Of a stretch of DNA of 33,546 nucleotides, positions 6,323 through 27,997 are shown piece by piece. Origin of the DNA: Nitrospirota bacterium (GTDB taxonomy: Bacteria > Nitrospirota > JACRHJ01); NCBI GenBank assembly GCA_021789495.1, contig JAJYJM010000014.1:1-33546 (forward strand), given 5' to 3'. The translations under genes were made by a program, and so were the position numbers. Within the stretch, counting starts at the first letter, position 1, and each line of letters begins with the position of its first letter. The notes below the pieces were generated by a model. That model had not been told where the DNA came from. It ran no database searches and saw nothing but the letters and a program-made list of their open reading frames with translations.

Positions 6323-8788
6323 TTATGAGTTTCTGCCGCCGAAAATACTTGCAAGCTCCCTTAAGACCTCTTCGGGCGGCAGGCCCGGCGGAGCCGCGAG
6401 GTATCCGGGTTCCCATACCGGGTTGAATTTCTCCTTGAATTTCCTGAGGCTGGGGGGCGAATCGAAGTGTTCCAGGTGGGTGTAGGGGAGGTCTTTGAAG
6501 GCGTTTTTGCCTTCTTTCGAATCGAGCGGCGCAGTTCCTAAGTTCAACCATTTAAAGCCTTTTTCCTTTCCCAGGCGGTAAATCCCGGCGATGAGCGGCA
6601 TAAGCGCGTCGGCGCCGGGTCTTAGGCGTATAACTACCGGGAAAAGCTCTGATTTTTCTTCGCATTGCCATACGTGTGCGAGGGCGGCGATACCGTCTTT
6701 GAACAGTGCCGCGACGGGTAATTTTTTAACCAAAAACCCATCCGCAGGCCCGGTCTCGTGCTCGAAAACCGCCCGCGCATCCGCCGGCAGCGCCGCCATG
6801 CCGCCCTCGAAATATCCGAAAACGAACCCCGCTTCTTCGGGGTAAACCAGCCCTTTCATGTCGCGTGTTATAATGGCCTTCGCCTCCTCGGAGACCTTCG
6901 TCAGGGTCAATCCCATGTCGATGTAAAACTGGCGGTTCTCTGACGGGATGTCGTAAAACGCGGGCTTTATATCGCGGTTTCTGTATTCCATGAAGCGCCA
7001 GGCAAGCTCTGTCCTGGCGGGAGGCGGTCCGGCCGGTTCACCCAGACATATATTTACTCTTTTGCCCTGCACCACCGGCAGAAAAGAGCCCGGCTCACCT
7101 GTAGACATGGCCCTGGCATTCGCGCTGAAAACAAGGTGCGATGGGGTCTGTCCGGACCGGCAGGCGATCCCCGGCGCGTCGGGTATTTCCTCCATCCTGT
7201 GCAGGACGAGTTTCGGAGTTTTCCGCCCAAGAGCTGTGCCCGCCGCTATGAATACAAGGGCCGCCGCCGCGCCGATGGTGGTCCGGAAGAACCTTGCGGC
7301 GTTTGCGAAGTAGCCGAATTCAAGCCACATCTCCCGCGTGTAGTGGACATGCCTGTAGACGAACAAGCCGACAGTAGCGGAGCTTGTAATCACAAGCCCG
7401 GCGGCCATCAGCCAGCCCGTTGAAAGCGGTTGCGTCTTAAGCGGCGCGGTCCTGTAGAATAGCCTCGGAAACGGCAGGATACCGGCGAGCACAACGAAAA
7501 GAAATATAGCCTCCTCGTAATCGAAAGCCCGCATGAGCGAAAAGACAATCCCGAAGAACAGCACAAGGACAGACAGTGAGTAGGCGCTCTTAATCCGCCT
7601 CTGAAGGCCCCTTGCGAGAAGCAGGAGGACGATGCCCGTGAGGCCCGCCATAATGTGCGCCGCCTCGACCGCCGGAAGCGGCAGAAGGGCCGACAGGGCG
7701 GACATCCTTCCGGGAATGGCGGGCGCCGCGCCCGTTATGAGGAGTATCGCCCCGGCTACGAATACGGCGATTCCGGCCAGGTCGGGGAGCAGAATCGGCG
7801 CGGCCCTGGAGGCCGAGAGCGCGGCGGTTTTAAAGAACTCCTTGTTTCGGAGCGCCTCCTGCGTGCCAAGCATGAGGATGCCGGCAATCATCGGCAGGAT
7901 GTAGTAAATGCCCCTGTATACCAGCAGAGAGGCAAGGACGGAGGCCGGTGGCGCGTACGGGGAGAGCATTATGAGGGCCACCATCTCGAATACGCCCAGG
8001 CCCCCTGGCGCCTGGCTTGCAAGGCCCGCAATCTGCGCGAACAGGAATATGCCGATGAAATCCATGTATGGCAGGTGCAGATCGTGCCGCAGGAGCACGA
8101 ACAGGACACTGCCCGCGAGGAGCCAGTCGAGCGAGGATACGCATATCTGTGCAAAGCATACGTAGAGGGACGGCACCTCGAACTCCATGCCGAAGACGCG
8201 GACGGGTTTCTTCCTTGTTAGACATACGGCGAGGTAGGATAATACGACGAGCAGGCATATAAGCCCTGCAACGAAGTCCGACGACACCGGCAGATTAAGC
8301 TCCGGCGGGACAGGCATGGGCCTTGAGAGAAATATCAGCGTCCCCATGAAACAGAACCCCGTCCAGAACGTAATGCCGTTGAACATCACGACCTTCGCCA
8401 CCTCCTTTGCGGAGAGTCCCCAGGAGGAATAGAGTCTGTATCTTACTCCGCCGCCGCTTATGGCCGAAGCGCCTATGCTGTGGCTTAAGGAGTAGGCGAC
8501 ATAAGACGCGAAGGCAGTCCTCCTGTAGGCAAGCGTCCGGCGGATGTAGTATATGGAGATTGTGTCGTAGCCGGTGAGCACTAAGTAGCCCGCGGCAGTG
8601 AGCAGGAGCGCCGCCAGGACGTCTCCGCGAGGCAGGTTCGTTATGTGCGCGACAATTTCGTGATAGCGGTATTTCCTGAGGGCATGGCGAAGGACGAGGA
8701 GCGCGGCCAGGAAAAGCGCTCCTCCCAGGAACGGCGCGAATCTCGACAGGACGTTTTTCAGCCTGCTACGCCCAGGACTGTCCGACAT
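6323..8788 (-). CDS. mprF: MprF-like phosphatidylglycerol aminoacyltransferase/flippase
   Basis: An 821-residue membrane protein. Residues about 15-500 are a long series of hydrophobic helices of the lysylphosphatidylglycerol flippase domain, including SHSIGASAISGGGVRYRLYS and FNGITFWTGFCFMG. Residues about 525-815 form a soluble DUF2156 (GNAT-like) synthase domain, with FMEYRNRDIKPAFYDIP and WLNLGTAPL. MprF transfers lysine or alanine from aminoacyl-tRNA to phosphatidylglycerol and flips the product outward, lowering surface charge and raising resistance to cationic peptides. The amino acid used cannot be told. ATG 8788 lies 23 bases inside the end of pyk, with AAGGTG 6 bases upstream, so it is co-transcribed with pyk. 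Length matches known full MprF. Confidence 0.9.
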   Translation of the reverse strand: MSDSPGRSRLKNVLSRFAPFLGGALFLAALLVLRHALRKYRYHEIVAHITNLPRGDVLAALLLTAAGYLVLTGYDTISIYYIRRTLAYRRTAFASYVAYSLSHSIGASAISGGGVRYRLYSSWGLSAKEVAKVVMFNGITFWTGFCFMGTLIFLSRPMPVPPELNLPVSSDFVAGLICLLVVLSYLAVCLTRKKPVRVFGMEFEVPSLYVCFAQICVSSLDWLLAGSVLFVLLRHDLHLPYMDFIGIFLFAQIAGLASQAPGGLGVFEMVALIMLSPYAPPASVLASLLVYRGIYYILPMIAGILMLGTQEALRNKEFFKTAALSASRAAPILLPDLAGIAVFVAGAILLITGAAPAIPGRMSALSALLPLPAVEAAHIMAGLTGIVLLLLARGLQRRIKSAYSLSVLVLFFGIVFSLMRAFDYEEAIFLFVVLAGILPFPRLFYRTAPLKTQPLSTGWLMAAGLVITSSATVGLFVYRHVHYTREMWLEFGYFANAARFFRTTIGAAAALVFIAAGTALGRKTPKLVLHRMEEIPDAPGIACRSGQTPSHLVFSANARAMSTGEPGSFLPVVQGKRVNICLGEPAGPPPARTELAWRFMEYRNRDIKPAFYDIPSENRQFYIDMGLTLTKVSEEAKAIITRDMKGLVYPEEAGFVFGYFEGGMAALPADARAVFEHETGPADGFLVKKLPVAALFKDGIAALAHVWQCEEKSELFPVVIRLRPGADALMPLIAGIYRLGKEKGFKWLNLGTAPLDSKEGKNAFKDLPYTHLEHFDSPPSLRKFKEKFNPVWEPGYLAAPPGLPPEEVLRELASIFGGRNS

Positions 8789-10187
8789 GGTGCACCTTCA
8801 GGAGGTTCGTGCCGGAGCCGAAAGGCACCCCCAGCGTTACCACGATGGCGTCTCCGGGCTTTACCAGGCCAAGTCCCAAGGCCGCCCGCTCTACCTCGCG
8901 TATCATCGCGTCCGTGTCCCGCTCCTCCCGGACTATCATCGGTATTACCCCGAAATACAGCCTCATCCTCCGGAATGTCTTTTCCGACGGCGTCGCGGCT
9001 ATAACGGAAGTCCTGGGCCTGTATTTCGATATTCTGAGGGCTGTGTCCCCGCTCCTGGTGAAGCAGATTACGGCCCTGGCGTTAAGGGCGTCCGCGCCGC
9101 GGCAGGCGGACAGGGCGATGACCTCGGAGGGCGTTGCCGACGCATCCGTATAATTGATGGACGAACACGAAGCGGCTTTAGCCGCCTCGGCGTTTGCGGC
9201 TATTTTGTTCATCACCAGCGCCGATGCGACAGGATATTTCCCCGACGCCGTCTCGCCTGAGAGCATCAGCGCGTCCGTGCCGTCCAATACCGCTCCGACC
9301 ACGTCCGACACCTCCGCCCGCGTGGGACGCGGGTTCCATATCATGGACTCCAGCATCTGCGTCGCGGTTATTACGGGCTTCTTCATCTCGTGGCATAGTT
9401 TAATTACCCGTTTCTGGACGAACGGGACTTTTTCAAGACGCATCTCCACGCCCAGGTCCCCGCGCGCGACCATCACGGCGTCGGAGTTTCTTATAATCTC
9501 CTTTATCTCCCGGAGGGCCTCCGGGCGTTCTATCTTCGAGATGACGGGAATATCGGAGCCCAGTTCGGCAATTTTCCTTTTCAGCATGAGCGGGTCTGAG
9601 GCCTTGCGGACAAACGACAGGGCAATATAGTCCACGTCCTCTTCCACGAGCAGCTTCAGGTCATCGAAGTCCTTGTCGGTCATCGTGGGCAGCTCAAGCG
9701 GAAGGCCGGGGAAGTTCACCCCCTTGTGCTCCAGGAGCAGACCGCCCTTCACGACTTTCGCCTTTACCTCTCCCACGGACGACGAGATTACCTTAAGTTC
9801 CATCATCCCGTCGTCAATCAGAATCCGGGAGCCGCGCCTTAGATCCGCCCCCAGCTTGTCGTAGCTTACATGTATGCGCCCGACGTCTCCGGTTATCTCC
9901 TCGGAGGTAAGGAATACGGTATCGCCCTCGTTTAGCTTGACCTTTCCGCCCGCGAGTCTTCCTACGCGCACCTTGGGCCCGCCGAGGTCTCCCAGTATGC
10001 AGAAAGGCCCCGTCCTGCCGGATTGCGTCAGGTTTCTTATCCGCCGGATAAGCCGGTGTTTCTCTTCCGCGTCCCCGTGGGACATGTTCAGCCGGAAGCA
10101 ATCCACGCCCGCCTTTATAAGCTCAAGGAGCGTCTCTTCGCTGTCCGATGCCGGGCCGACCGTCGCAACCACTTTTGTGCGCGCCAT
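8766..10187 (-). CDS. pyk: Pyruvate kinase
   Basis: A 473-residue cytoplasmic enzyme making pyruvate and ATP from phosphoenolpyruvate and ADP in the last step of glycolysis. Visible catalytic motifs are CFRLNMSHG (R32, N34, S36), GDLGGPKVRVG, SKIERPEA (K218, E220), ARGDLGVEM (241-249) and TATQMLESM (274-282). The length fits the plain bacterial type without the extra C-terminal phosphohistidine domain. ATG 10187 has only a weak AAGGG site 12 bases upstream. A promoter facing left is recognisable in the short gap to the divergent lipoprotein gene. The 3' end overlaps mprF by 23 bases. Confidence 0.96.
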   Translation of the reverse strand: MARTKVVATVGPASDSEETLLELIKAGVDCFRLNMSHGDAEEKHRLIRRIRNLTQSGRTGPFCILGDLGGPKVRVGRLAGGKVKLNEGDTVFLTSEEITGDVGRIHVSYDKLGADLRRGSRILIDDGMMELKVISSSVGEVKAKVVKGGLLLEHKGVNFPGLPLELPTMTDKDFDDLKLLVEEDVDYIALSFVRKASDPLMLKRKIAELGSDIPVISKIERPEALREIKEIIRNSDAVMVARGDLGVEMRLEKVPFVQKRVIKLCHEMKKPVITATQMLESMIWNPRPTRAEVSDVVGAVLDGTDALMLSGETASGKYPVASALVMNKIAANAEAAKAASCSSINYTDASATPSEVIALSACRGADALNARAVICFTRSGDTALRISKYRPRTSVIAATPSEKTFRRMRLYFGVIPMIVREERDTDAMIREVERAALGLGLVKPGDAIVVTLGVPFGSGTNLLKVHHVGQSWA

Positions 10188-12971: not shown

Positions 12972-13068
12972 CTGAAGAGACGGTAAATGGCAGTTTTGGA
13001 AGGCGGACGGTTCCCATGCCTTTAGTTCCAAGGTTTCTGACCGATTTCATAACAAGGAGGAAGTGAAG

Positions 13069-14283
13069 ATGGCGCTTGTTAACCCGCACGGAAAAGCAAA
13101 AAAACTGATGCCTCTTCTCCTGGAGGGGAAGGCACTGGAGACGGCGACAGCCGCCGCGAAGAAGATGGAGCAGGTCAAGATGACCTCCAGGGAGACCTCC
13201 GACCTCATAATGATGGGCATCGGCGCGTTCACCCCGCTCACGGGCTTCATGACGAAGGCCGACTGGCAGGGCGTATGCGACAAGTTCGTCATGGCCGACG
13301 GCACGTTCTTCCCCATCCCCATCACGCTCTCGACCAGCAAGGAGCAGGCCGACAAGCTTAAGGTGGGCCAGGAAGTCGCGCTCGTGGACGGCGAGTCCGG
13401 CGAGCTTATGGGGTCTATGACCGTAAAGGAGAAGTATTCGATAGACAAGGCCTACGAATGCAAGGCAATATTCACCACGACCGACCTTGAGCACCCCGGC
13501 GTTCAAAAAGTCATGGAGCAGGGCGATGTCAACATAGCCGGCCCGGTGAAGGTCTTCTCCGAGGGACATTACCCGGAGGCCTACAAGGGTGTTTACATGA
13601 GGCCAGCCGAGACCAGGAAGCTCTTTGAAGAGAAGGGCTGGAGCACCGTCGCGGCGTTCCAGACCAGGAACCCGATGCACCGCTCCCATGAGTATCTTGC
13701 GAAGCTCTCGATTGAGATGCTCGACGGCTGCTGCATCCATATGCTCCTCGGCAAGCTGAAGCCCGGCGACATACCGGCGGACGTAAGGCAGAAGGCCATA
13801 GACGTCCTGGTTGACGAATATTTCGTGAAGGACACCTGCGTCGTCTCCGGCTACCCGATGGAGATGCGCTATGCAGGCCCCAGGGAGGCGCTTCTGCACG
13901 CGCTCTTTAGACAGAACTACGGCATGAGCCACCTGCTCGTCGGTCGCGACCACGCCGGCGTCGGGGACTACTACGGCCCCTTCGACGCGCACCACATCTT
14001 CGACAAGATACCGAAGGGCGCGCTTGAGACCGAGCCACTGAAGATAGACTGGACCTTCTACTGCAAGAAGTGCGACGGCATGGCCTCCATGAAGACCTGC
14101 CCGCACGGCAAGGAAGACAGGCTCATCCTCTCCGGCACCAAGCTCCGCAAGATGCTCTCCGAAGGCGAAGAGGTCCCCGATCACTTCAGCCGTCCGGAGG
14201 TGCTCACCATCCTCAGGAAGTATTACGAGGGCCTGACGGAGAAGGTCGAGATAAAAATGCACCGCTTCGCGGAAGGCAAATAA
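13069..14283 (+). CDS. sat: Sulfate adenylyltransferase (ATP sulfurylase), dissimilatory type
   Basis: A 404-residue cytoplasmic enzyme that activates sulfate with ATP to adenosine 5'-phosphosulfate, the first step of sulfate reduction. The nucleotide-binding motif [10 protein letters not shown] (198-207) and GRDHAG (292-297) are intact. A zinc site C332-KK-C335 ... C344-P-H346 is present, as in prokaryotic Sat of sulfate reducers. ATG 13069 is chosen because GGAGG (13056-13060) lies 8 bases upstream. The in-frame GTG at 13063 is only 2 bases from that site. It is the first gene of the sulfate operon, followed after 209 bases by aprB. Its strong preference for C or G in third codon positions suggests high expression. 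Confidence 0.97.
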
Positions 14284-14492
14284 CCGGGCGGGGCAGACGG
14301 CGTATGGCAAGGCAGGGCCAATGATCCGTCGCACCACAAAATTTAATGCGAGCAACAGGATTACTCACTTGATTCTCTGATAAAGGAGGTGGGAAGGAAA
14401 CAAGGTTTTCTTAGGGGGAATTTAGACGTTCTCAGTCTGAAGCCGGTTATCCGGCCAAACGCAAACGGAAGGTTTATCAGGAGGAGGTTAAG
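14284..14492 (+). other. Leader between sat and aprB with an orphan ribosome site
   Basis: This 209-base spacer contains AAAGGAGGTG (14382-14391), close to the perfect complement of 16S rRNA, yet no usable start codon follows within 15 bases. Further on is a small perfect hairpin, GCCGG-TTAT-CCGGC (14442-14455). The real aprB ribosome site, GGAGGAGG, follows just before 14493. No T-run terminator is visible, so transcription from sat can continue. Confidence 0.5.
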
Positions 14493-14915
14493 ATGCCAAG
14501 TTGTGTAAACGTCGATAAATGTGACGGCTGCAAGGGCAAGGACAAGACTGCCTGTCAGTACATCTGCCCGAACGACCTTATGAAGCTGGACAGGAACATG
14601 ATGAAGGCCTGGAACCAGGAGCCGGAAGCCTGCTGGGAGTGCTATTCCTGTGTGAAGATATGCCCCCAGAGCGCCATCGAAGTCAGGGCGTATGCGGACA
14701 TCGTCCCCTTGGGCGGCAGCGTTGTGCCTCTCAGGGGTTCGGACTCCATCATGTGGACCGTAAAGTTCCGCAACGGCAAGCTCAAGAGGTTCAAGTTCCC
14801 CATCAGGACCACCGCGGAAGGCTCCATAAAGCCTTACGAGGGTATGCCGGAGCCGGGCGACATAAAGGACCAGCTCCTGTTTACCGAAACCGGGAAAACG
14901 CTGCCGAAGCTTTAA
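14493..14915 (+). CDS. aprB: Adenylylsulfate reductase beta subunit
   Basis: A 140-residue iron-sulfur subunit that carries electrons to the flavin of AprA for APS reduction to sulfite and AMP. Two [4Fe-4S] cluster motifs are visible: C10-x2-C13-x7-C21-x3-C25-P and C47-x2-C50-x2-C53-x3-C57-P. The unusual x7 spacing in the first is characteristic of AprB. The C-terminal tail, from about residue 70 (GGSVVPLRGSDSIMW and beyond), is the part that wraps around AprA. ATG 14493 follows a strong GGAGGAGG. It is 39 bases ahead of aprA. No membrane segment is present, so the enzyme is cytoplasmic. Confidence 0.97.
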   Translation: MPSCVNVDKCDGCKGKDKTACQYICPNDLMKLDRNMMKAWNQEPEACWECYSCVKICPQSAIEVRAYADIVPLGGSVVPLRGSDSIMWTVKFRNGKLKRFKFPIRTTAEGSIKPYEGMPEPGDIKDQLLFTETGKTLPKL

Positions 14916-14954
14916 TCAGAACAAACAGTCCATAAAAGTCAAGGAGGGATTGAC

Positions 14955-16874
14955 ATGTCCTTAGAGAGAGAAAGCTGCACGTCTTCATACTGTGAAGACC
15001 CGCAGATAGTGGAGATGGATACCGATATACTGCTCATTGGCGGCGGCATGGCTAATTGCGGAGCGGCGTTCGAGGTTATGCCCTGGGCCAAGAAGTTCGG
15101 CCTCAAGGTAACGCTTGTCGACAAGGCGGCCATGGACCGCTCCGGCGCGGTTGCGCAGGGTCTCTCCGCCATCAACACCTACATGGGCGGACAGGATCCC
15201 GCCGATTACGTCCGGATGGTCAAGAACGACCTGATGGGCATCGTGCGCGACGACCTCATCTATGACGTGGGCCGTCACGTAGACGACTCCGTTCACCTCT
15301 TCGAGCGCTGGGGCCTCCCGGTCTGGAAGCAGGCGGGCGACGAGGGCAAGCCGCTTGAGAAGGGCGGCAAGTGTGTCCGTTCCGGCAAGTGGCAGATAAT
15401 GATAAACGGCGAGTCCTACAAGGTCATCGTCGCCGAGGCCGCTAAGAAGGCCCTTGGCGAAGAGAACATCTTCGAGAGGGTCTTCATCGTCAAGCTCATA
15501 CTCGACGAGAAGGAAGACAACAGGATCGCGGCGGCGGTAGGCTTCTCCACCCGCGAGAACAAGATATACTACATCCGCGCAAACGCGATACTCCTGGCCG
15601 CCGGCGGCGCCGTCAACATCTTCAGGCCGCGTTCCGTCGCGGAAGGTATGGGCCGCGCGTGGTACCCGGTATGGAACGCCGGTTCCACCTACACGATGGC
15701 CGCCCAGGTCGGCGCGGAGCTGACCATGATGGAAAACCGTTTCGTGCCCGCCCGCTTCAAGGACGGCTACGGCCCGGTCGGCGCGTGGTTCCTGCTCTTC
15801 AAGGCGAAGGCCACCAACGCCAAGGGCGAGAACTACATGGTAACCAACGGCGACATGCTTAAGGAGTATCCTCCCTACGGCCTCGCCGCAGTCCCGGCCA
15901 CCTGCCTCAGGAACCATCTGATGCTCAAGGAAATGAAGGAAGGCCGCGGCCCGATATACATGGACACCGCCACCGCGATGAAGGAGCTTGCGGCGACGAT
16001 GGACGAGAAGCAGGTCAAGCACCTCGAAGCCGAGGCGTGGGAAGACTTCCTCGACATGTGCGTCGGCCAGGCGGGCCTCTGGGCCGGCATGAACATCCAG
16101 CCGGAAGTCATAGGCTCCGAGCTTATGCCGACCGAGCCGTACATGCTTGGCAGCCACTCCGGCTGTTGCGGCATCTGGGTCTCCGGCCCCGAGGACATTG
16201 CCCCCGCCGAGTGGCAGTGGGGTTATAACAGGATGACCACTGTCAAGGGCCTCTTTACGGCCGGCGACGGCGTCGGCGCCTCCGGCCACAAGTTCTCCTC
16301 CGGCTCCCACGCCGAAGGCAGGATCGCGGCCAAGGCGATGGTGAAGTTCGTCCTGGACAACAAGGACTTCAAGCCCACTATCTCCAAGAGCGCCAAGGAT
16401 TTCGCCGCGGAGATACAGAAGCCCTTCAAAACCTTCGAGCAGTTCAAGAACGTCACCACGGACGACTACGTCAACCCGAACTACATCAGGCCGAAGATGC
16501 TTATGTATCGCCTGAACAAGATCATGGACGAGTACGTCGCCGGAACCTCCACCTACTACATTACCTCCGCCGCTCTGATGAACAGGGCGCTGGAGCTCCT
16601 CACCTGGCTGAAAGAGGATTCCGAGAAGATGGCCGCAAAGGACCTCCATGAACTGATGAGGTGCTGGGAGAACTACCACAGGATATTCACTGCGGAAGCT
16701 CACCTCCGCCACATCCTCTTCAGGGAAGAGACCCGTTACCCCGGCTTCTTCTACAGGGCTGATTTCCCGAAACTGGACGAGACGAACTGGAAGTGCTTCG
16801 TCAATTCCAAAATCAACCCGAAGACCGGTGAGTGGACCTGCCACAAGGTCGCACACAAAGACCTCGTGAAGTAA
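14955..16874 (+). CDS. aprA: Adenylylsulfate reductase alpha subunit
   Basis: A 639-residue FAD-containing catalytic subunit reducing APS to sulfite and AMP. The FAD-binding segment LLIGGGMANCGAAFE lies near residues 27-40, with a cap and substrate region containing RFVPARFKDGYGPVGAWFLLF. GSHSGCCGIWVSGPEDIAP and TAGDGVGASGHKFSSGSHAEG are further strongly conserved AprA segments. Length is within the usual range. GGAGGG precedes ATG 14955 by 6 bases. Physical linkage to qmoABC is typical of organisms running the enzyme in the reductive direction, though some sulfur oxidisers also carry Qmo, so direction is inferred. Its codon bias is extreme, leaving a 623-codon open frame on the opposite strand that is not a gene. 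Confidence 0.97.
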   Translation: MSLERESCTSSYCEDPQIVEMDTDILLIGGGMANCGAAFEVMPWAKKFGLKVTLVDKAAMDRSGAVAQGLSAINTYMGGQDPADYVRMVKNDLMGIVRDDLIYDVGRHVDDSVHLFERWGLPVWKQAGDEGKPLEKGGKCVRSGKWQIMINGESYKVIVAEAAKKALGEENIFERVFIVKLILDEKEDNRIAAAVGFSTRENKIYYIRANAILLAAGGAVNIFRPRSVAEGMGRAWYPVWNAGSTYTMAAQVGAELTMMENRFVPARFKDGYGPVGAWFLLFKAKATNAKGENYMVTNGDMLKEYPPYGLAAVPATCLRNHLMLKEMKEGRGPIYMDTATAMKELAATMDEKQVKHLEAEAWEDFLDMCVGQAGLWAGMNIQPEVIGSELMPTEPYMLGSHSGCCGIWVSGPEDIAPAEWQWGYNRMTTVKGLFTAGDGVGASGHKFSSGSHAEGRIAAKAMVKFVLDNKDFKPTISKSAKDFAAEIQKPFKTFEQFKNVTTDDYVNPNYIRPKMLMYRLNKIMDEYVAGTSTYYITSAALMNRALELLTWLKEDSEKMAAKDLHELMRCWENYHRIFTAEAHLRHILFREETRYPGFFYRADFPKLDETNWKCFVNSKINPKTGEWTCHKVAHKDLVK

Positions 16875-16875
16875 T

Positions 16876-16946
16876 CAGGTTTTGTCTAACCTGGCTAGGC
16901 CCGCCTTACGGCGGGCCCTGCCTGATTGGATGAGCAGGTGGCAGGG
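16876..16946 (+). other. Cluster of stem-loops between aprA and qmoA
   Basis: Three inverted repeats follow the aprA stop. They are CAGGTT/AACCTG (16876-16893), GGCCCGCC-TTAC-GGCGGGCC (16898-16917), and CCCTGCC/GGCAGGG (16916-16946), the last competing slightly with the second. None is followed by a T-run. They may protect the 3' end of a processed aprBA message or reduce read-through into qmoABC. Confidence 0.6.
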
Positions 16947-17015
16947 GTAATAAGCTCACCAATTTGTTAAACATCCAGGCCTGCGCGCCCGGAATATTAT
17001 GAATGGAGAGGCTGT

Positions 17016-18263
17016 ATGGCGGAGAACAAGAGCATCCTGGTCGTCGGGGGCGGAATAAGCGGAATTTCCGTGGCCGTCGAGGCGGCTGAAGTAGGGTACA
17101 AGGTCCATCTTGTCGAAAGGAACGCATACCTGGGCGGAAGGGTGGCCCAGCTTAACAAGTACTTCCCCAAGCTGTGCCCGCCCTATTGCGGCCTGGAGAT
17201 AAATTTCAGGCGTATCAGGCCCAACCCCGACATCGATGTCCTTACGATGAGCGAAGTCGTAAATATACAGGGCGGCCCCGGGAATTTTACAGTTACGGTA
17301 AAAACCAACCCGCGCTACATCAATTCGGCCTGCACCTCCTGCGGCAAGTGCGCGGAGGCATGTCCGGCTGAGCGCGCGAACGGCTTCAACTACGGCATGG
17401 ACAGGACAAAGGCGGCATACCTCCCGCACACTCTGGCCTTCCCGATGAGATACGTCATAGACCGCTCGGCGTGCGCCTCCGGTTGCAAGGCTTGCGAAGC
17501 GGCCTGTAAATACGGAGCAGTCGAGCTCGACCAGCAGCCGGTAACCACCGAGCTAAAGGTCGGCTCCATAGTATACGCTACCGGCTGGAAGCCGTACGAC
17601 ATGGGAAACCTGAAGCTCCTCGGCGAAGGGAAGATGAAGAACGTCATATCCAACGTCATGATGGAGCGTCTCGCCTCTCCGGGCGGGCCGACAGGCGGAA
17701 AGATACTCAGGCCCTCGGACGGCAAGGAGGCCAAGGTCGTCGGGTTTGTCCAGTGCGCGGGGAGCAGGGACGAAAACCACCTCTCTCACTGCTCATCCAT
17801 CTGTTGCATGGCCTCGATAAAGCAGGCGTTCTATCTCCGCGACCAGTATGCGGACTCTAAGGCGGAGATATTCTACATAGACTTGAGGACACCCGGACGG
17901 TATGAGAAGTTCCTGAACCGGGCGCAGGCCGACGAGAACATAAAGTTTACCAAGGGCAAGGTCGCGGCGGTATCCGAAGACCCGTCCACGGGCGACATAA
18001 CCGTAGAGCTGGAAGACGTGTTTGCCGGGACAAAGAGGAAGGCTACAGTGGACATGCTGGTGCTTGCCACCGGTATGGAGCCTGAGATGAAGGGAACCGC
18101 AGGCGCGGCTTCTGTAAGCCAGGACGGGTTCGCCCTGGCCGATATTCAGAAGCCGGGAATATATTCAACGGGGGTGGCCAAGAGCCCGGTGGACGTGATG
18201 ACGTCCATACAGGATGCGGCCGGGACGGCTCTCAAGGCGATGCAGTCGATAGTCAGGAGTTAG
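17016..18263 (+). CDS. qmoA: Quinone-interacting membrane-bound oxidoreductase subunit QmoA
   Basis: A 415-residue cytoplasmic HdrA-like flavoprotein of the Qmo complex, which links menaquinol to AprAB. An N-terminal FAD fold has GGGISGISVAVEAAE (11-25). Two cysteine groups likely hold iron-sulfur clusters: C106-x2-C109-x2-C112-x3-C116-P and C153-x3-C157-x2-C160-x3-C164. Further segments shared with HdrA include VQCAGSRDENHLSHCSSICC. ATG 17016 follows GGAGAGG. It ends 4 bases before qmoB. The 141-base gap from aprA carries stem-loops, so expression may differ from that of aprBA. Confidence 0.95.
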   Translation: MAENKSILVVGGGISGISVAVEAAEVGYKVHLVERNAYLGGRVAQLNKYFPKLCPPYCGLEINFRRIRPNPDIDVLTMSEVVNIQGGPGNFTVTVKTNPRYINSACTSCGKCAEACPAERANGFNYGMDRTKAAYLPHTLAFPMRYVIDRSACASGCKACEAACKYGAVELDQQPVTTELKVGSIVYATGWKPYDMGNLKLLGEGKMKNVISNVMMERLASPGGPTGGKILRPSDGKEAKVVGFVQCAGSRDENHLSHCSSICCMASIKQAFYLRDQYADSKAEIFYIDLRTPGRYEKFLNRAQADENIKFTKGKVAAVSEDPSTGDITVELEDVFAGTKRKATVDMLVLATGMEPEMKGTAGAASVSQDGFALADIQKPGIYSTGVAKSPVDVMTSIQDAAGTALKAMQSIVRS

Positions 18264-18267
18264 CCAT

Positions 18268-20541
18268 ATGGACAGAAAACTTGGCATTTATCTTTGCTCC
18301 GGCTGCGGCATATCCGATGCCGTTGATATGGAGAAGCTCGAAAAGGTGGCCTCAGGAGAGCTGAAAGCGGCCTCGTGCGCAGTTAGCCCCTTCCTTTGCG
18401 GGAAGGAAGGCTCTGCAAAAATAGCCGCGGACGTTAAAGACGGCGTGAACACCGTCGTAATCGGCGCGTGTTCGCCCAGGGTCATGTACGACGTATTCGC
18501 GTACGACCCGCACGTAGTACTGGAAAGGGTGAACCTGCGCGAGCATGTCGCCTGGTCCCAGCCGGGCGCGGAGATCAAGGTGGAAGGCGAGGGGGGCGAG
18601 GCCAAAACGGTCTTCACCGAGTCTACCCAGATGATGGCGGCGGACTACCTCCGCATGGGTGTGGCGAAGGCCATGAAGGCGGAGCCGCCGGAGCCGCTCA
18701 GGCAGGAGCTGACAAAGACGGTGCTGGTTGTCGGCGGCGGCGTGACGGGCATGAGGGCTGCGCTGGACGCTGCGGCTCTGGGATACAAGGCCGTACTGGT
18801 CGAGAAGACCGGAGCGCTTGGAGGCTGGAACGCAAAGTCATACATGCAGCTCCCGACCAAGGGAGATTTCTCCAAGGCGGAAGAGCCGATAGCAGGCGAA
18901 CTCATTGCTCAGGTTCGCGCCGACAGCAACATAAAGGTGTATCTTAACGCCGAGGTTACCAAGACCGCGGGCGCACCGGGAATGTACGACGTTACCATAA
19001 CCTCCAACGGCGCCGAGACGCAGGAAAAGATCGGCACCATTGTTATGGCGGTCGGCTGGCAGCCTTACGACCCCGCGAACCTCGCGGACAAGTACGGCTA
19101 CGGGAACCTCGCGAACGTGATAACGAGCGTCCAGCTCGAAGAAATGGCGAAGGACGGCGCAATCAAGAGGCCGTCCGACGGCAAGGCCGCTTCGAGCGTG
19201 CTCTTCATACAGTGCGCCGGTTCGCGTGACCCGCAGCACCTCCCTTACTGTTCTTCCACGTGCTGCGCGACGTCTCTTCGGCAGGCAGGCTACATACGCC
19301 AGAGTTCGGTAGATGCAAAGGCGATAATCGTCTACAAGGACATGCGGACTCCGGGCCTATACGAAAACTACTACAAACAGGCCCAGAACGATCCCGGCAT
19401 ATTCCTGACAAAGGGCGAGGTGACGGGTATAACCGAGGAGGGGAGCGGGAACCTCGTAGTCGAGGTTTCGGACAGCTTCCTGGGCGAGAAGGTGGGGATC
19501 AGGGCGGACCTCGTGGTGCTTGCCACGGGCATGGTCCCGAACACAAAGCCGCTTGACAGGGCATCGAACGATCTGCCCGTCAGGACTCTTGCGATGGACT
19601 ACGACGACCAGGCCAAGGGCGTAAAACCCCTCACGCCCGCGCCGGTATTAAACCTCCAATACCGCCAGGGGCCCGAAGTCCCGACCCTGGAATACGGCTT
19701 TCCGGACTCCCACTACATCTGCTTCCCGTATGAGACCCAGAGGACGGGTATCTACGCCGCAGGCGCGGTACGCTCCCCGATGGGTGTGGCCGAGGCCCTG
19801 CGGGATGCATCCGGCGCCGCCCTGAAGGCCATACAGTGCGTGGAGCTTACGTCGAGAGGCGCGGCGGTTCATCCAAGGGCCGGAGACATGACATACCCGG
19901 AGTTCCGCCTGGAATCCTGCACGCAGTGCAAACGATGCACGGAAGAGTGCCCGTTCTCCACGCTGGACGAAGACGAGAAGGGCACGCCGAAGCCGAACCC
20001 GACGCGCTGCCGCCGTTGCGGCGTGTGCATGGGCGCATGCCCTCAGAGGATAATTTCGTTTAAGAACTACTCCGTTGACATCATCGGCTCGATGATTAAG
20101 GCAGTGGACGTGCCCGCGGACGACGACTCACAGATGCGCTTTATCTGTCTGATGTGCGAAAACGACGCATACCCGGCGCTCGACATGTTGGGCATTAACC
20201 GGCTGAAATACCACAACAACCTGCGTATCGTGCCCGTGCGGTGCCTTGGTTCCGTCAACGTCGTCTGGATAGCGGACGCCCTCTCGCGCGGAGTTGACGG
20301 GATAATCATGGCCGGGTGCAAGTTCGGTGAAGATTACCAGTGCCACTTCATCAAGGGCTCGGAGCAGTGCAGCAAAAGGATGGACAACGTGCAGGAGACG
20401 CTCCAGAGGCTCTCGCTTGAGCCGGAGCGCGTCCAGCAGATACAGGTTACCGCCTCGGATTACGCCCAGCTTCCCGCGATGCTGGATAAAATAGTCGAAG
20501 GCATAAAATCAATGGGCCCCAACCCCTTCAAGGGCTTTTAG
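18268..20541 (+). CDS. qmoB: Quinone-interacting membrane-bound oxidoreductase subunit QmoB
   Basis: A 757-residue HdrA-like flavoprotein with extra electron-transfer modules. Residues 1-140 carry cysteines resembling the N-terminal HdrA part (C10, C13, C37, C44). The FAD fold begins at GGGVTGM (156-162). Two ferredoxin-type clusters follow: C551-x2-C554-x2-C557-x3-C561-P and C581-x2-C584-x2-C587-x3-C591-P. The last 130 residues are an MvhD/FlpD-like domain (FICLMCENDAYPALD, VRCLGSVN, AGCKFGEDYQCHF). The layout matches known QmoB and has prompted proposals of flavin-based electron confurcation. AGGAGT within the end of qmoA serves as its ribosome site. Confidence 0.95.
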   Translation: MDRKLGIYLCSGCGISDAVDMEKLEKVASGELKAASCAVSPFLCGKEGSAKIAADVKDGVNTVVIGACSPRVMYDVFAYDPHVVLERVNLREHVAWSQPGAEIKVEGEGGEAKTVFTESTQMMAADYLRMGVAKAMKAEPPEPLRQELTKTVLVVGGGVTGMRAALDAAALGYKAVLVEKTGALGGWNAKSYMQLPTKGDFSKAEEPIAGELIAQVRADSNIKVYLNAEVTKTAGAPGMYDVTITSNGAETQEKIGTIVMAVGWQPYDPANLADKYGYGNLANVITSVQLEEMAKDGAIKRPSDGKAASSVLFIQCAGSRDPQHLPYCSSTCCATSLRQAGYIRQSSVDAKAIIVYKDMRTPGLYENYYKQAQNDPGIFLTKGEVTGITEEGSGNLVVEVSDSFLGEKVGIRADLVVLATGMVPNTKPLDRASNDLPVRTLAMDYDDQAKGVKPLTPAPVLNLQYRQGPEVPTLEYGFPDSHYICFPYETQRTGIYAAGAVRSPMGVAEALRDASGAALKAIQCVELTSRGAAVHPRAGDMTYPEFRLESCTQCKRCTEECPFSTLDEDEKGTPKPNPTRCRRCGVCMGACPQRIISFKNYSVDIIGSMIKAVDVPADDDSQMRFICLMCENDAYPALDMLGINRLKYHNNLRIVPVRCLGSVNVVWIADALSRGVDGIIMAGCKFGEDYQCHFIKGSEQCSKRMDNVQETLQRLSLEPERVQQIQVTASDYAQLPAMLDKIVEGIKSMGPNPFKGF

Positions 20542-20551
20542 GAGGATGACG

Positions 20552-21703
20552 ATGAACGGGACAATCATTGAGCCTGATCTCGGATTTATAAAAGATTTGA
20601 CGGCTTCCGGGGCCGAATCCCTGAAAAAATGCTACCAGTGCGCGACATGCTCTGTTGTCTGCAGGATAGCCCCCGAAGGAAGCCCGTTCCCGCGCAAGGA
20701 GATGGTCTGGGCGCAGTGGGGACTGAAAGACAAGCTCGCGGCGGACCCTGACGTGTGGCTCTGCCACAACTGCGGGGACTGCACCACCAACTGCCCGCGC
20801 GGCGCAAAACCCGGCGACGTCCTGGGTGCGCTCCGGAAGGCGACGATAGAGAAATACGCCATGATAAGGCCGCTCGCGGCTCTCGGAGGCAACTTTGCCG
20901 CGCAGTTCATAGTGGGGGCGATAGTCATAACCGGCCTGCTCCTGGCCATCGGACACACGAACGTCCTCGCGAACTACCATTCGGTTGACAAGAACGGTCA
21001 TCTGCGTATCATCTTCAACAACTTCATCCCGACCCACGACATAGACAAGCTCTTCGCGCCGCTCTTCCTGCTCGGTGTCGTAACGGCCATATACGGGATA
21101 AGGAGGTTCTGGAACGACATATGCGATGCCGCCGGGCTTGGGAAATATACGGGCCGAAACGCACTGCCGAGCATCGCGCCGACAATCGGCCAGGTGCTCA
21201 AGCACAATGTCTTCGCCTCGTGCGGCGAGAACTCCGACAGGAAGACCCCGCACCTCCTGACGTTCTTCGCCTTCATCGCCCTGTTCATCACGACGAACTG
21301 GGCGGTGTTCTACCTGTACGTGCTCGGATGGAAGCCGGGCGATTACTCATCTCTGTCTAACCCCTTGAAATGGCTTGGAAACGCTGGCGCAATCATGCTG
21401 ATAGCCGGCTCGTACCTGCTGATCAAGAACCGCAAAGCAAAGTCCGAAAAGCAGACGAGTTCGAACTTCGACTGGAGCCTGTTGTATCTCGTCTTCTTTA
21501 TCGGCGTAACCGGTACTGCGGCGGAAGCCTTCAGGATTGTCGGGGCGTACGCGCCGGCGCAGGCCGTATATGTCATGCACCTCATCTTCATCGCGCAGCT
21601 CTTCATATTCGCGCCGTATTCCAAGCTCGCGCACATGTTCTACCGCACCACCGCGATGGTATTCGCCAAGCACACCGGGCGGGAGCTGAAGGCTGCGGCG
21701 TAA
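20552..21703 (+). CDS. qmoC: Quinone-interacting membrane-bound oxidoreductase subunit QmoC
   Basis: A 383-residue membrane subunit combining HdrC-like and heme-b domains. Two [4Fe-4S] motifs, C27-x2-C30-x2-C33-x3-C37 and C71-x2-C74-x2-C77-x3-C81-P, lie in the soluble N-terminal part. From about residue 107, six or so hydrophobic helices form the quinone-side cytochrome-b-like domain with several histidines (for example in PTHDIDKLFAP). GGAGG (20541-20545), which uses the last base of the qmoB stop, is 6 bases from ATG 20552. An ATG at 20546 touches the GGAGG directly and is unlikely to be used. It is the last gene of the operon; qmoD is not found after it. Confidence 0.94.
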   Translation: MNGTIIEPDLGFIKDLTASGAESLKKCYQCATCSVVCRIAPEGSPFPRKEMVWAQWGLKDKLAADPDVWLCHNCGDCTTNCPRGAKPGDVLGALRKATIEKYAMIRPLAALGGNFAAQFIVGAIVITGLLLAIGHTNVLANYHSVDKNGHLRIIFNNFIPTHDIDKLFAPLFLLGVVTAIYGIRRFWNDICDAAGLGKYTGRNALPSIAPTIGQVLKHNVFASCGENSDRKTPHLLTFFAFIALFITTNWAVFYLYVLGWKPGDYSSLSNPLKWLGNAGAIMLIAGSYLLIKNRKAKSEKQTSSNFDWSLLYLVFFIGVTGTAAEAFRIVGAYAPAQAVYVMHLIFIAQLFIFAPYSKLAHMFYRTTAMVFAKHTGRELKAAA

Positions 21704-25512: not shown

Positions 25513-25545
25513 CCGGTTGGCAAAACCGGCCCTGCCTGCTATAAT
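25513..25545 (+). promoter_or_regulatory. Promoter with inverted repeat over the -35, aldolase/TldE operon
   Basis: TTGGCA (25517-25522), a 17-base spacer and a perfect TATAAT (25540-25545). An inverted repeat CCGGTT/AACCGG (25513-25518 and 25524-25529) with a 5-base centre covers the -35, a likely repressor site or a short hairpin in DNA. The leader before ATG 25599 is about 46 bases and carries GAGGAGGGG. Confidence 0.75.
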
Positions 25546-25598
25546 ATTGATTTTACGCTATATTCTTACGCATTTACATATTCCACAGAGGAGGGGTT

Positions 25599-26690
25599 AT
25601 GGGACTTGCACAGAACGCGCAGAAGCTGATGGACAGAAGGCCGCCGCAGGTAACGAAAAAGCTGGGGAGCGGCGCAAAGGCGCTCCTGGTTTCCTCCGAC
25701 CCGGTATTCCGCGCCCTTCGGGAGCACAAGGTCATAATCATGGCCTGCAACACGCGCATCAAGCATGTAATCCCCGGAATAATGCGGGCGGCGGAGGAAC
25801 TGGACGCGATAGTCGCCTTCGAGCTGGCAAAGTCCGAAGGGAACTTAAAAGGGGGATATACCGGGATGGACCCGTACATATTCTTCGATGTCCTGATGGG
25901 ATATGCCGAAAAGACGAAGTTCACGAAACCGTTCTTCATACACGGCGACCACACCACCACGAAATCGAAGGCCCCGGAGGTAATCGCGGACTCCAGGGCG
26001 CTCATCAAGGCGGAACTCGATGCGGGCTATACCTCCGTCGCCATCGACGCCTCGTTCAACCAGATACCGGATAACATCATAGTTACGACCGACCTGGGCC
26101 GTGACGTCATGGCGGCGGGTGCGGGGCTGGAGGTCGAGGTGGGCGAGATAAAATCCGTCGGCTACGAGGGTGAGATAACCACTGTGGAAGAGGCGGTGGA
26201 TTTTATCGCCGGCCTTGAGGCAGGCGGAATAAGGCCGAACCTGCTTGCCATAAACAACGGCTCCAAACACGGGAATTACCTGCCGGGCGAGGAAGTGCAT
26301 ATCGACCTGAAACGCACGGGCGAGGTGTATAACGCCGTAAAGAAGTGGGGCGTGAACATTGCCCAGCACGGCATCACCGGCACACCGCTTGAGCTTGTCG
26401 GCCAGTTCGCGGACTACGGCATCAGGAAGGGCAACGTCGGCACGAACTGGCAGAACATCGCCCACCAGGGCCTGCCTGCCGACCTCATGCAGGCCATGCG
26501 GGACTGGGCAAAGAAAGAAAACAAGGACATAAAGTTCGCCACCAAGCAGTTCTACAAGGAAATCGACAATATCCCGGAGGCGGACAAAAATAACATCGAG
26601 GACATGGCGTACAAGTCCGCGCTGGAGTTCATCAAGGCCTTCCGCGCAAAGGGGACGGCGACACTGTTCCTGGAGAGCGGAGTGGTGTAA
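25599..26690 (+). CDS. Class II fructose-bisphosphate aldolase-family protein
   Basis: A 363-residue TIM-barrel protein of the zinc-dependent class II aldolase family. Recognisable are H115-G-D117-H118 (the catalytic Asp and first zinc His), LEVEVGEIK (178-184), NNGSKHGNY with H223, and AQHGITGTP with H257. The remaining phosphate-binding and sugar-binding segments diverge from the well-known FbaA/GatY types; for instance IRKGNVGTNWQ replaces the usual KVNIDTDxQ. It may serve as the cell's fructose-bisphosphate aldolase in gluconeogenesis, or act on another sugar or ketose phosphate. The stop overlaps the next start by one base (TAATG). The promoter carries an inverted repeat, so it is probably regulated. 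Confidence 0.85.
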   Translation: MGLAQNAQKLMDRRPPQVTKKLGSGAKALLVSSDPVFRALREHKVIIMACNTRIKHVIPGIMRAAEELDAIVAFELAKSEGNLKGGYTGMDPYIFFDVLMGYAEKTKFTKPFFIHGDHTTTKSKAPEVIADSRALIKAELDAGYTSVAIDASFNQIPDNIIVTTDLGRDVMAAGAGLEVEVGEIKSVGYEGEITTVEEAVDFIAGLEAGGIRPNLLAINNGSKHGNYLPGEEVHIDLKRTGEVYNAVKKWGVNIAQHGITGTPLELVGQFADYGIRKGNVGTNWQNIAHQGLPADLMQAMRDWAKKENKDIKFATKQFYKEIDNIPEADKNNIEDMAYKSALEFIKAFRAKGTATLFLESGVV

Positions 26691-27997
26691 TGCTCCAATA
26701 CCTTACAGACGCACTTAAAGCCCGCACCGATTTCTCCGCCTGGCAGGTGATGAAGGCGGTCAAACGCAGCCACCAGCTCTTCCTCATACACGAGGAAACC
26801 GAGTCCGTCCGGCGTGTGGACACGGTGAAATATTACGTTACCGTCCATCAGAAACGGGAGGATGGCGGGGGCCGAGGCCCGTCTACCGGCGTCTTGGGCG
26901 AATCGAGTTTTGTCTTTCTCGAAGGAGACGACATTGCCCCGAAGCTCGACCTGGCGGCTGAAATGGCCTCCCGCGTATCGAACCAGCCCTGGCTTCTCCC
27001 CGGCCCCGACCAGAGATTCATGGGCGCGGAGATAAAGGACAACTCGATTGTCGCAAACCCGGACAAGGTTATAGAGAAGGTAAAAGAGGAGATACTGCAT
27101 ACGGTCGGCGGACTCGACGGAGTGCGGCTTTCGTCCTCGGAGCTTTTCGCGGACTATACCGAATACGAGCTTGTAAACTCCCTCGGCCTCAAGGTCTCTT
27201 CGGCGGATACGGATATGCTGTTCGATTTCGTGCTTCTTACGGGAGAAGGACACGGAGAGGTGGAGTCTTCCGGGTTCAAAACCTGCCGGTTCTACAAAGA
27301 CCTGCATGTCGGAGAGACGCTCAGGAAATACGCGCAATATGCGCGGGATTCGCTCACGGCGGCCCTTCCGGAGAACGGGAAGGCTGACGTGGTTTTCGCC
27401 GATGAGGCCCTCGATACGCTTTTCAATTCGTTCATCGCCCACGCGGGCGGGTCTTCCGCATACCAGGGCTGGAGCAGATTCGAGAAAGACAGGCCCGTAA
27501 TCGACGCGCCGGAGGGGGAGCTTCTGACCATGTTTTCCAACCCGCAGCTTCCCGGAATGATGAGAAGCGGAGCCTTCGACGACAGCGGGCTGGCCAGGAA
27601 GCGCGTGGAGGTTATCCGGGAAAACATCTTCAAAAAGCGCACGCTGGACAAGCGATATTCGGACTACCTGGGCCAAGAGGCGACGGGCGCGTTTGCCAAC
27701 GTTGAGGTGGAGGCGGGGGCGAAGAAGATGGACGAACTGCTGTCCGAGGGAACCTATTTATTGCTCCGTTTTTCCACGTTCGAGCCGAACCCCGTAACCG
27801 GGAACTTCTCCGGCGAGATACGCACGGGCTACAGAATCGAGGGCGGAAAACGCATCCCCATAAAGGGCGGGAGCGTCTCCGGCGTCATCCAGGACGCCTT
27901 CCGCAGGGCGTGGTTCTCCTCCGAAAAGGTCACCCGCTCGGCCTACAGAGGCCCCGCGGGTATAAAGCTCCTCGGGCTGGACCTGGCGGGGGAGTAA
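26690..27997 (+). CDS. TldD/PmbA (TldE)-family protein without HExxxH
   Basis: A 435-residue member of the TldD/TldE family, known from peptide maturation (microcin B17) and antitoxin degradation. The C-terminal barrel segments are clear: HAGGSSAYQGWSRF (from H251), then AFDDSGLARKRVEVIREN, then NVEVEAGAKKMDELL, then the sequence FSGEIRTGYRIEGGKRIPIK leading to GGSVSG. The zinc motif HExxxH of catalytic TldD is absent, so this is the TldE/PmbA-like type, which normally needs a TldD partner. None is encoded here. ATG 26690 overlaps the aldolase stop (TAATG), so the two proteins are made together. Whether it processes the aldolase, or has a separate job, is unknown. Confidence 0.82.
   Translation: MLQYLTDALKARTDFSAWQVMKAVKRSHQLFLIHEETESVRRVDTVKYYVTVHQKREDGGGRGPSTGVLGESSFVFLEGDDIAPKLDLAAEMASRVSNQPWLLPGPDQRFMGAEIKDNSIVANPDKVIEKVKEEILHTVGGLDGVRLSSSELFADYTEYELVNSLGLKVSSADTDMLFDFVLLTGEGHGEVESSGFKTCRFYKDLHVGETLRKYAQYARDSLTAALPENGKADVVFADEALDTLFNSFIAHAGGSSAYQGWSRFEKDRPVIDAPEGELLTMFSNPQLPGMMRSGAFDDSGLARKRVEVIRENIFKKRTLDKRYSDYLGQEATGAFANVEVEAGAKKMDELLSEGTYLLLRFSTFEPNPVTGNFSGEIRTGYRIEGGKRIPIKGGSVSGVIQDAFRRAWFSSEKVTRSAYRGPAGIKLLGLDLAGE

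Follow-up and report, generated by a model that had tools for sequence, protein, structure and literature searches.

The stretch of Nitrospirota DNA analysed here (the window, 33,546 nucleotides in all) carries a short operon whose two genes appear to have two separate jobs, one encoding a housekeeping aldolase and the other a relocated TldE2 subunit, a reading to which we give a probability of about 0.8. The first gene encodes a zinc-dependent class II ketose-bisphosphate aldolase and the second TldE2, the metal-free partner of TldD2, a second metallopeptidase of TldD type whose gene lies on another contig. The two partners would assemble into a hollow heterodimer, the metal site coming from TldD2 and the rest of the chamber from TldE2, and unfolded peptides may be threaded into this chamber and trimmed, by analogy with E. 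coli TldD/TldE. The ancestral order would have been a TldD2-TldE2 tandem, with the pair presumably separated in the Nitrospirota family of the window and the TldE2 gene settling behind the aldolase in the ancestor of one genus, where it would now be co-transcribed with it. The pairing of the two genes seems to be a recent and ordinary accident of gene order, and the apparent oddity of an aldolase beside a TldE mostly dissolves. The features of the locus are as follows.

25513 to 25529, no strand assigned: inverted repeat CCGGTT-N5-AACCGG (exact 6+6), overlapping the -35 hexamer
25517 to 25545, plus strand: sigma-70-type promoter TTGGCA-17-TATAAT with an extended -10 (TGC before it), 11/12 matches
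25599 to 26690, plus strand: gene for a divergent class II (zinc) ketose-bisphosphate aldolase, 363 aa
26690 to 27997, plus strand: TldE2 gene, for a non-catalytic TldE/PmbA-type subunit, 435 aa
28074 to 28090, plus strand: terminator-like hairpin plus trailing T run, lying between the TldE2 gene and alaS

A preliminary description of this DNA had reported a one-base TAATG overlap joining the two open reading frames, and their coordinates bear this out, the start codon of the TldE2 gene sharing one base with the stop codon of the aldolase gene. The five species of the genus all had an identical overlap. The promoter is near consensus, with a TG preceding its second hexamer, and its hexamers were conserved across the genus; G005, the only genome of the same family outside the genus, has TTGGCA...TATACT. 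Between the two genes no strong promoter-like site was found, the only match being a weak one (9/12) inside the aldolase gene. A two-gene operon is supported, the genes being presumably co-transcribed, and translation of the aldolase and TldE2 is probably coupled in the genus. The single promoter previously proposed is present as one near-consensus site in front of both genes; the dedicated regulation attributed to it is unsupported.

The earlier assignment of the two proteins to the class II aldolase and TldE/PmbA families was borne out by Pfam matches. The aldolase matched F_bP_aldolase (PF01116) with 109.5 bits (cut-off 25.5), and its model showed a fold match to class II aldolases, resembling equally those that act on fructose bisphosphate (FBP), tagatose bisphosphate or sulfofructose phosphate. 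Asp117, His118, His224, His257 and Asn279 were invariant and aligned with conserved class II positions, the first four lining up with the metal ligands and catalytic Asp of known aldolases. The protein is like the known FBP/ketose-bisphosphate aldolases of PF01116 in fold and in its aligned metal-site and catalytic positions, but it differs in the alignment with 7nc7 by having HGITG for HGGTG and NVGTN for NVNTE, and its NCBIfam aldolase scores all fell far short of the cut-offs (for cbbA, 71 bits where 215.6 is required, and for the FBP aldolase equivalog TIGR01859, 64.6 bits where 343 is required).

The absence of families from the genome was assessed by separate profile searches, in which the window aldolase was the only PF01116 protein found. 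No match was obtained with PF01791 or PF01950; PF00274 gave no match in the genome and none in its control either. This divergent protein is the one FBP aldolase candidate that the genome yielded, and most likely serves the cell as its FBP aldolase. A 450-aa type of class II aldolase was present in most other relatives and absent from the nine genomes that have the window type, which suggests, from gene content, replacement between the two types in a housekeeping role. The 450-aa protein also belongs to PF01116, is about 30-35% identical to the window aldolase and shares its GDH, G(T/S)xHG, QHG and QN blocks, and it differs by a longer N-terminal part. In the window (8766-10187) and the whole genome (G000), aldolase and pyruvate kinase were present, yet the profile searches for fructose bisphosphatases (PF00316, PF03320 and PF01950) had no hit. 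With none of these three families found in the genome, the assignment to the FBP pathway has a gap, and the enzyme may act on a different substrate.

The second protein matched Pfam PmbA_TldD_3rd with 84.9 bits (cut-off 22). As had been noticed from the sequence, it has no HExxxH, and it also has no metal-ligand Cys-Gly-Lys motif. Its model was closest to solved TldE structures, with Foldseek E values down to 2e-22, residues 253-339 being poorly predicted. Structure comparison (5nj5, 3qtd, 6j6a) showed the same fold as E. coli TldD/TldE (PmbA), of MEROPS M103, and the resemblance extends to the division of the pair into a TldE-type subunit that lacks HExxxH and a TldD partner that bears the catalytic signature. 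The window protein scored only 27.6 bits against the canonical PmbA equivalog NF008268, whose cut-off is 438.

Profile searches found four TldD/TldE members in the genome: a canonical TldE (contig C7), a canonical TldD (contig C13), TldD2 (contig C47) and the TldE2 of the window. The statement that the window protein has no TldD partner is consequently correct for the immediate neighbourhood and wrong for the genome; the search for a TldD that had been put forward as a test yielded both a canonical TldD with its TldE and a cognate second TldD. Two proteins of the genome, TldD2 and the TldD of C13, have the HExxxH and Cys required of a partner. The motifs HExxxHGxExD and C-G-K are both kept in TldD2. 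In E. coli TldD they correspond to H262, E263, H267, E270, D272, C454 and K456, whose roles as metal ligands, catalytic glutamate or structural residues have been described (PMC5810440). In the genome G011 a TldD is encoded directly upstream of the TldE2 ortholog, and TldD2 shares 61% identity with that TldD.

Among 99 relatives, orthologs of TldD2 and TldE2 occurred in the same 11/11 genomes, in tandem in five and apart in six, the latter all from the family of the window. This co-occurrence points to a TldD2/TldE2 pair whose genes have been split, with the window protein as its inactive member. When about 85,000 GTDB species genomes were scanned with TldE2 as the query, 23 loci were obtained, from Nitrospirota, Desulfobacterota, Firmicutes and one record titled Campylobacterota. 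TldE2 adjoined TldD2 at 16 of these loci and the aldolase at three (all in the genus of the window); three had neither neighbour and one lay at a contig end. TldD2 relatives were found directly upstream of TldE2 relatives in other Nitrospirota, in Desulfobacterota and in Firmicutes. In the tree, D2 and E2 each formed a clade of their own with full support, separate from canonical TldD and TldE, and the branching within the two clades agreed; their identity matrices were correlated (r = 0.95, 12 genomes, a value that includes shared species history). TldD2 and TldE2 are thus a separate and divergent clade pair with respect to the E. coli type, which the genome also keeps. What remains useful is this divergent second TldD/TldE pair, with its catalytic signature intact, in Nitrospirota, Desulfobacterota and Firmicutes. 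Separation of the two genes has a parallel in E. coli, where tldD and tldE are normally at separate locations.

The window protein might instead be an orphan, acting as a TldE homodimer or as partner of the canonical TldD of C13 and not of TldD2. Homodimeric TldE crystal structures exist and a canonical TldD is at hand in the genome, but those homodimers have no recognisable catalytic site or activity (PMC5810440), the canonical TldD has a canonical TldE available to it, and the constant co-occurrence of TldD2 and TldE2, their tandem order in most genomes and their matching trees all speak against this arrangement, which we consider unlikely.

A search for functional neighbours conserved beside TldD2/TldE2 turned up Memo-like and HtrA-like genes, neither of them general. 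In the family of the window, TldD2 stands divergently beside an HtrA/Deg-like trypsin-PDZ protease gene (L118:227-3123, which is C47 of G000; L112:4679-7646; L113:6385-10153), and another HtrA-like gene precedes TldE2 in G005 (L010:58-1383). A Memo-like gene adjoins three close TldD2/TldE2 loci of Desulfobacterota/Proteobacteria. An isolated TldE2 in a Deltaproteobacteria genome stands beside two B12-binding radical SAM genes (L089:2842-5757).

The linkage of the aldolase with TldE2 was confined to one genus. Across 396 Nitrospirota genomes, the window type of aldolase was present in nine and TldE2 in ten, in addition to one copy truncated by a contig end (G001). Both were found in six genomes and were adjacent in five, all of one genus. 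G005 has both genes unlinked, on different contigs; its aldolase gene has the same HD-GAF, ligase and DUF2007 genes upstream and an 86-aa ORF downstream. The order of the flanking genes of the genus (ligase, DUF2007, alaS and ubiB) was likewise conserved, and to much the same extent, so that the adjacency of aldolase and TldE2 in the genus is not above background.

These results bear on the proposal of functional coupling within the operon, by which TldE2, on its own or together with TldD2, would process, degrade or regulate either the aldolase itself or a substrate, peptide or sugar-linked, that the aldolase helps to make, co-expression keeping the two in balance. The overlap kept in five species is compatible with selection for co-expression, and the single promoter in front of the genes, with only the weak 9/12 match inside the aldolase gene besides, also speaks for such coupling. 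Linkage was nevertheless absent from G005 and from all other TldE2 or aldolase genomes examined, five TldE2 genomes of the phylum do not have the window aldolase, three aldolase genomes do not have TldE2, and the neighbours within the genus are conserved as well as this pair, so that we regard coupling as very improbable. The survey of both families that the preliminary description had called for thus ends at one genus of five species, and the functional tie that this description suggested between aldolase and TldE is not supported, both findings that it had named as refuting the idea having been made: the lack of wider linkage, and a canonical TldD and TldE elsewhere in the genome. Judging by titles and abstracts, the literature contains no report tying an aldolase to TldD/TldE. 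There is only a slim chance that TldD2/TldE2 makes up a separate subfamily of peptidases, specific for a substrate of its own, and that the genus recruited TldE2 from it into the biology of the aldolase, for processing or controlling the enzyme or a linked product.

The inverted repeat described on the -35 is present, being exact (6+6) in the window genome and in G004, that is in two of the four aligned members of the genus. Its conservation is partial: one pair was broken in G001 and G002, and in G005 the repeat was absent while TTGGCA and the -10 persisted. The 221-base stretch around it contains ten inverted pairs of at least 6 bases, so one further repeat is unremarkable. No DNA-binding regulator was found among the adjacent genes that were profiled. 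Because the repeat is not conserved in relatives whereas the promoter hexamers are, a dedicated repressor, as had been suggested, finds no support; the promoter itself explains the conservation at this site, and the repeat is probably not an operator. The exact repeat across the -35 in two genomes leaves a repressor-controlled operon with a very small probability, given its poor conservation beside persisting hexamers, the lack of a DNA-binding regulator among the profiled neighbours and a near-consensus promoter that suits constitutive expression.

Elsewhere in the window, genes for sulfate adenylyltransferase, aprB and aprA and qmo-like genes (13063-21703) represent dissimilatory sulfur metabolism, and a tmRNA gene on the minus strand (1666-2022) encodes the tag ANTNEYALAA.
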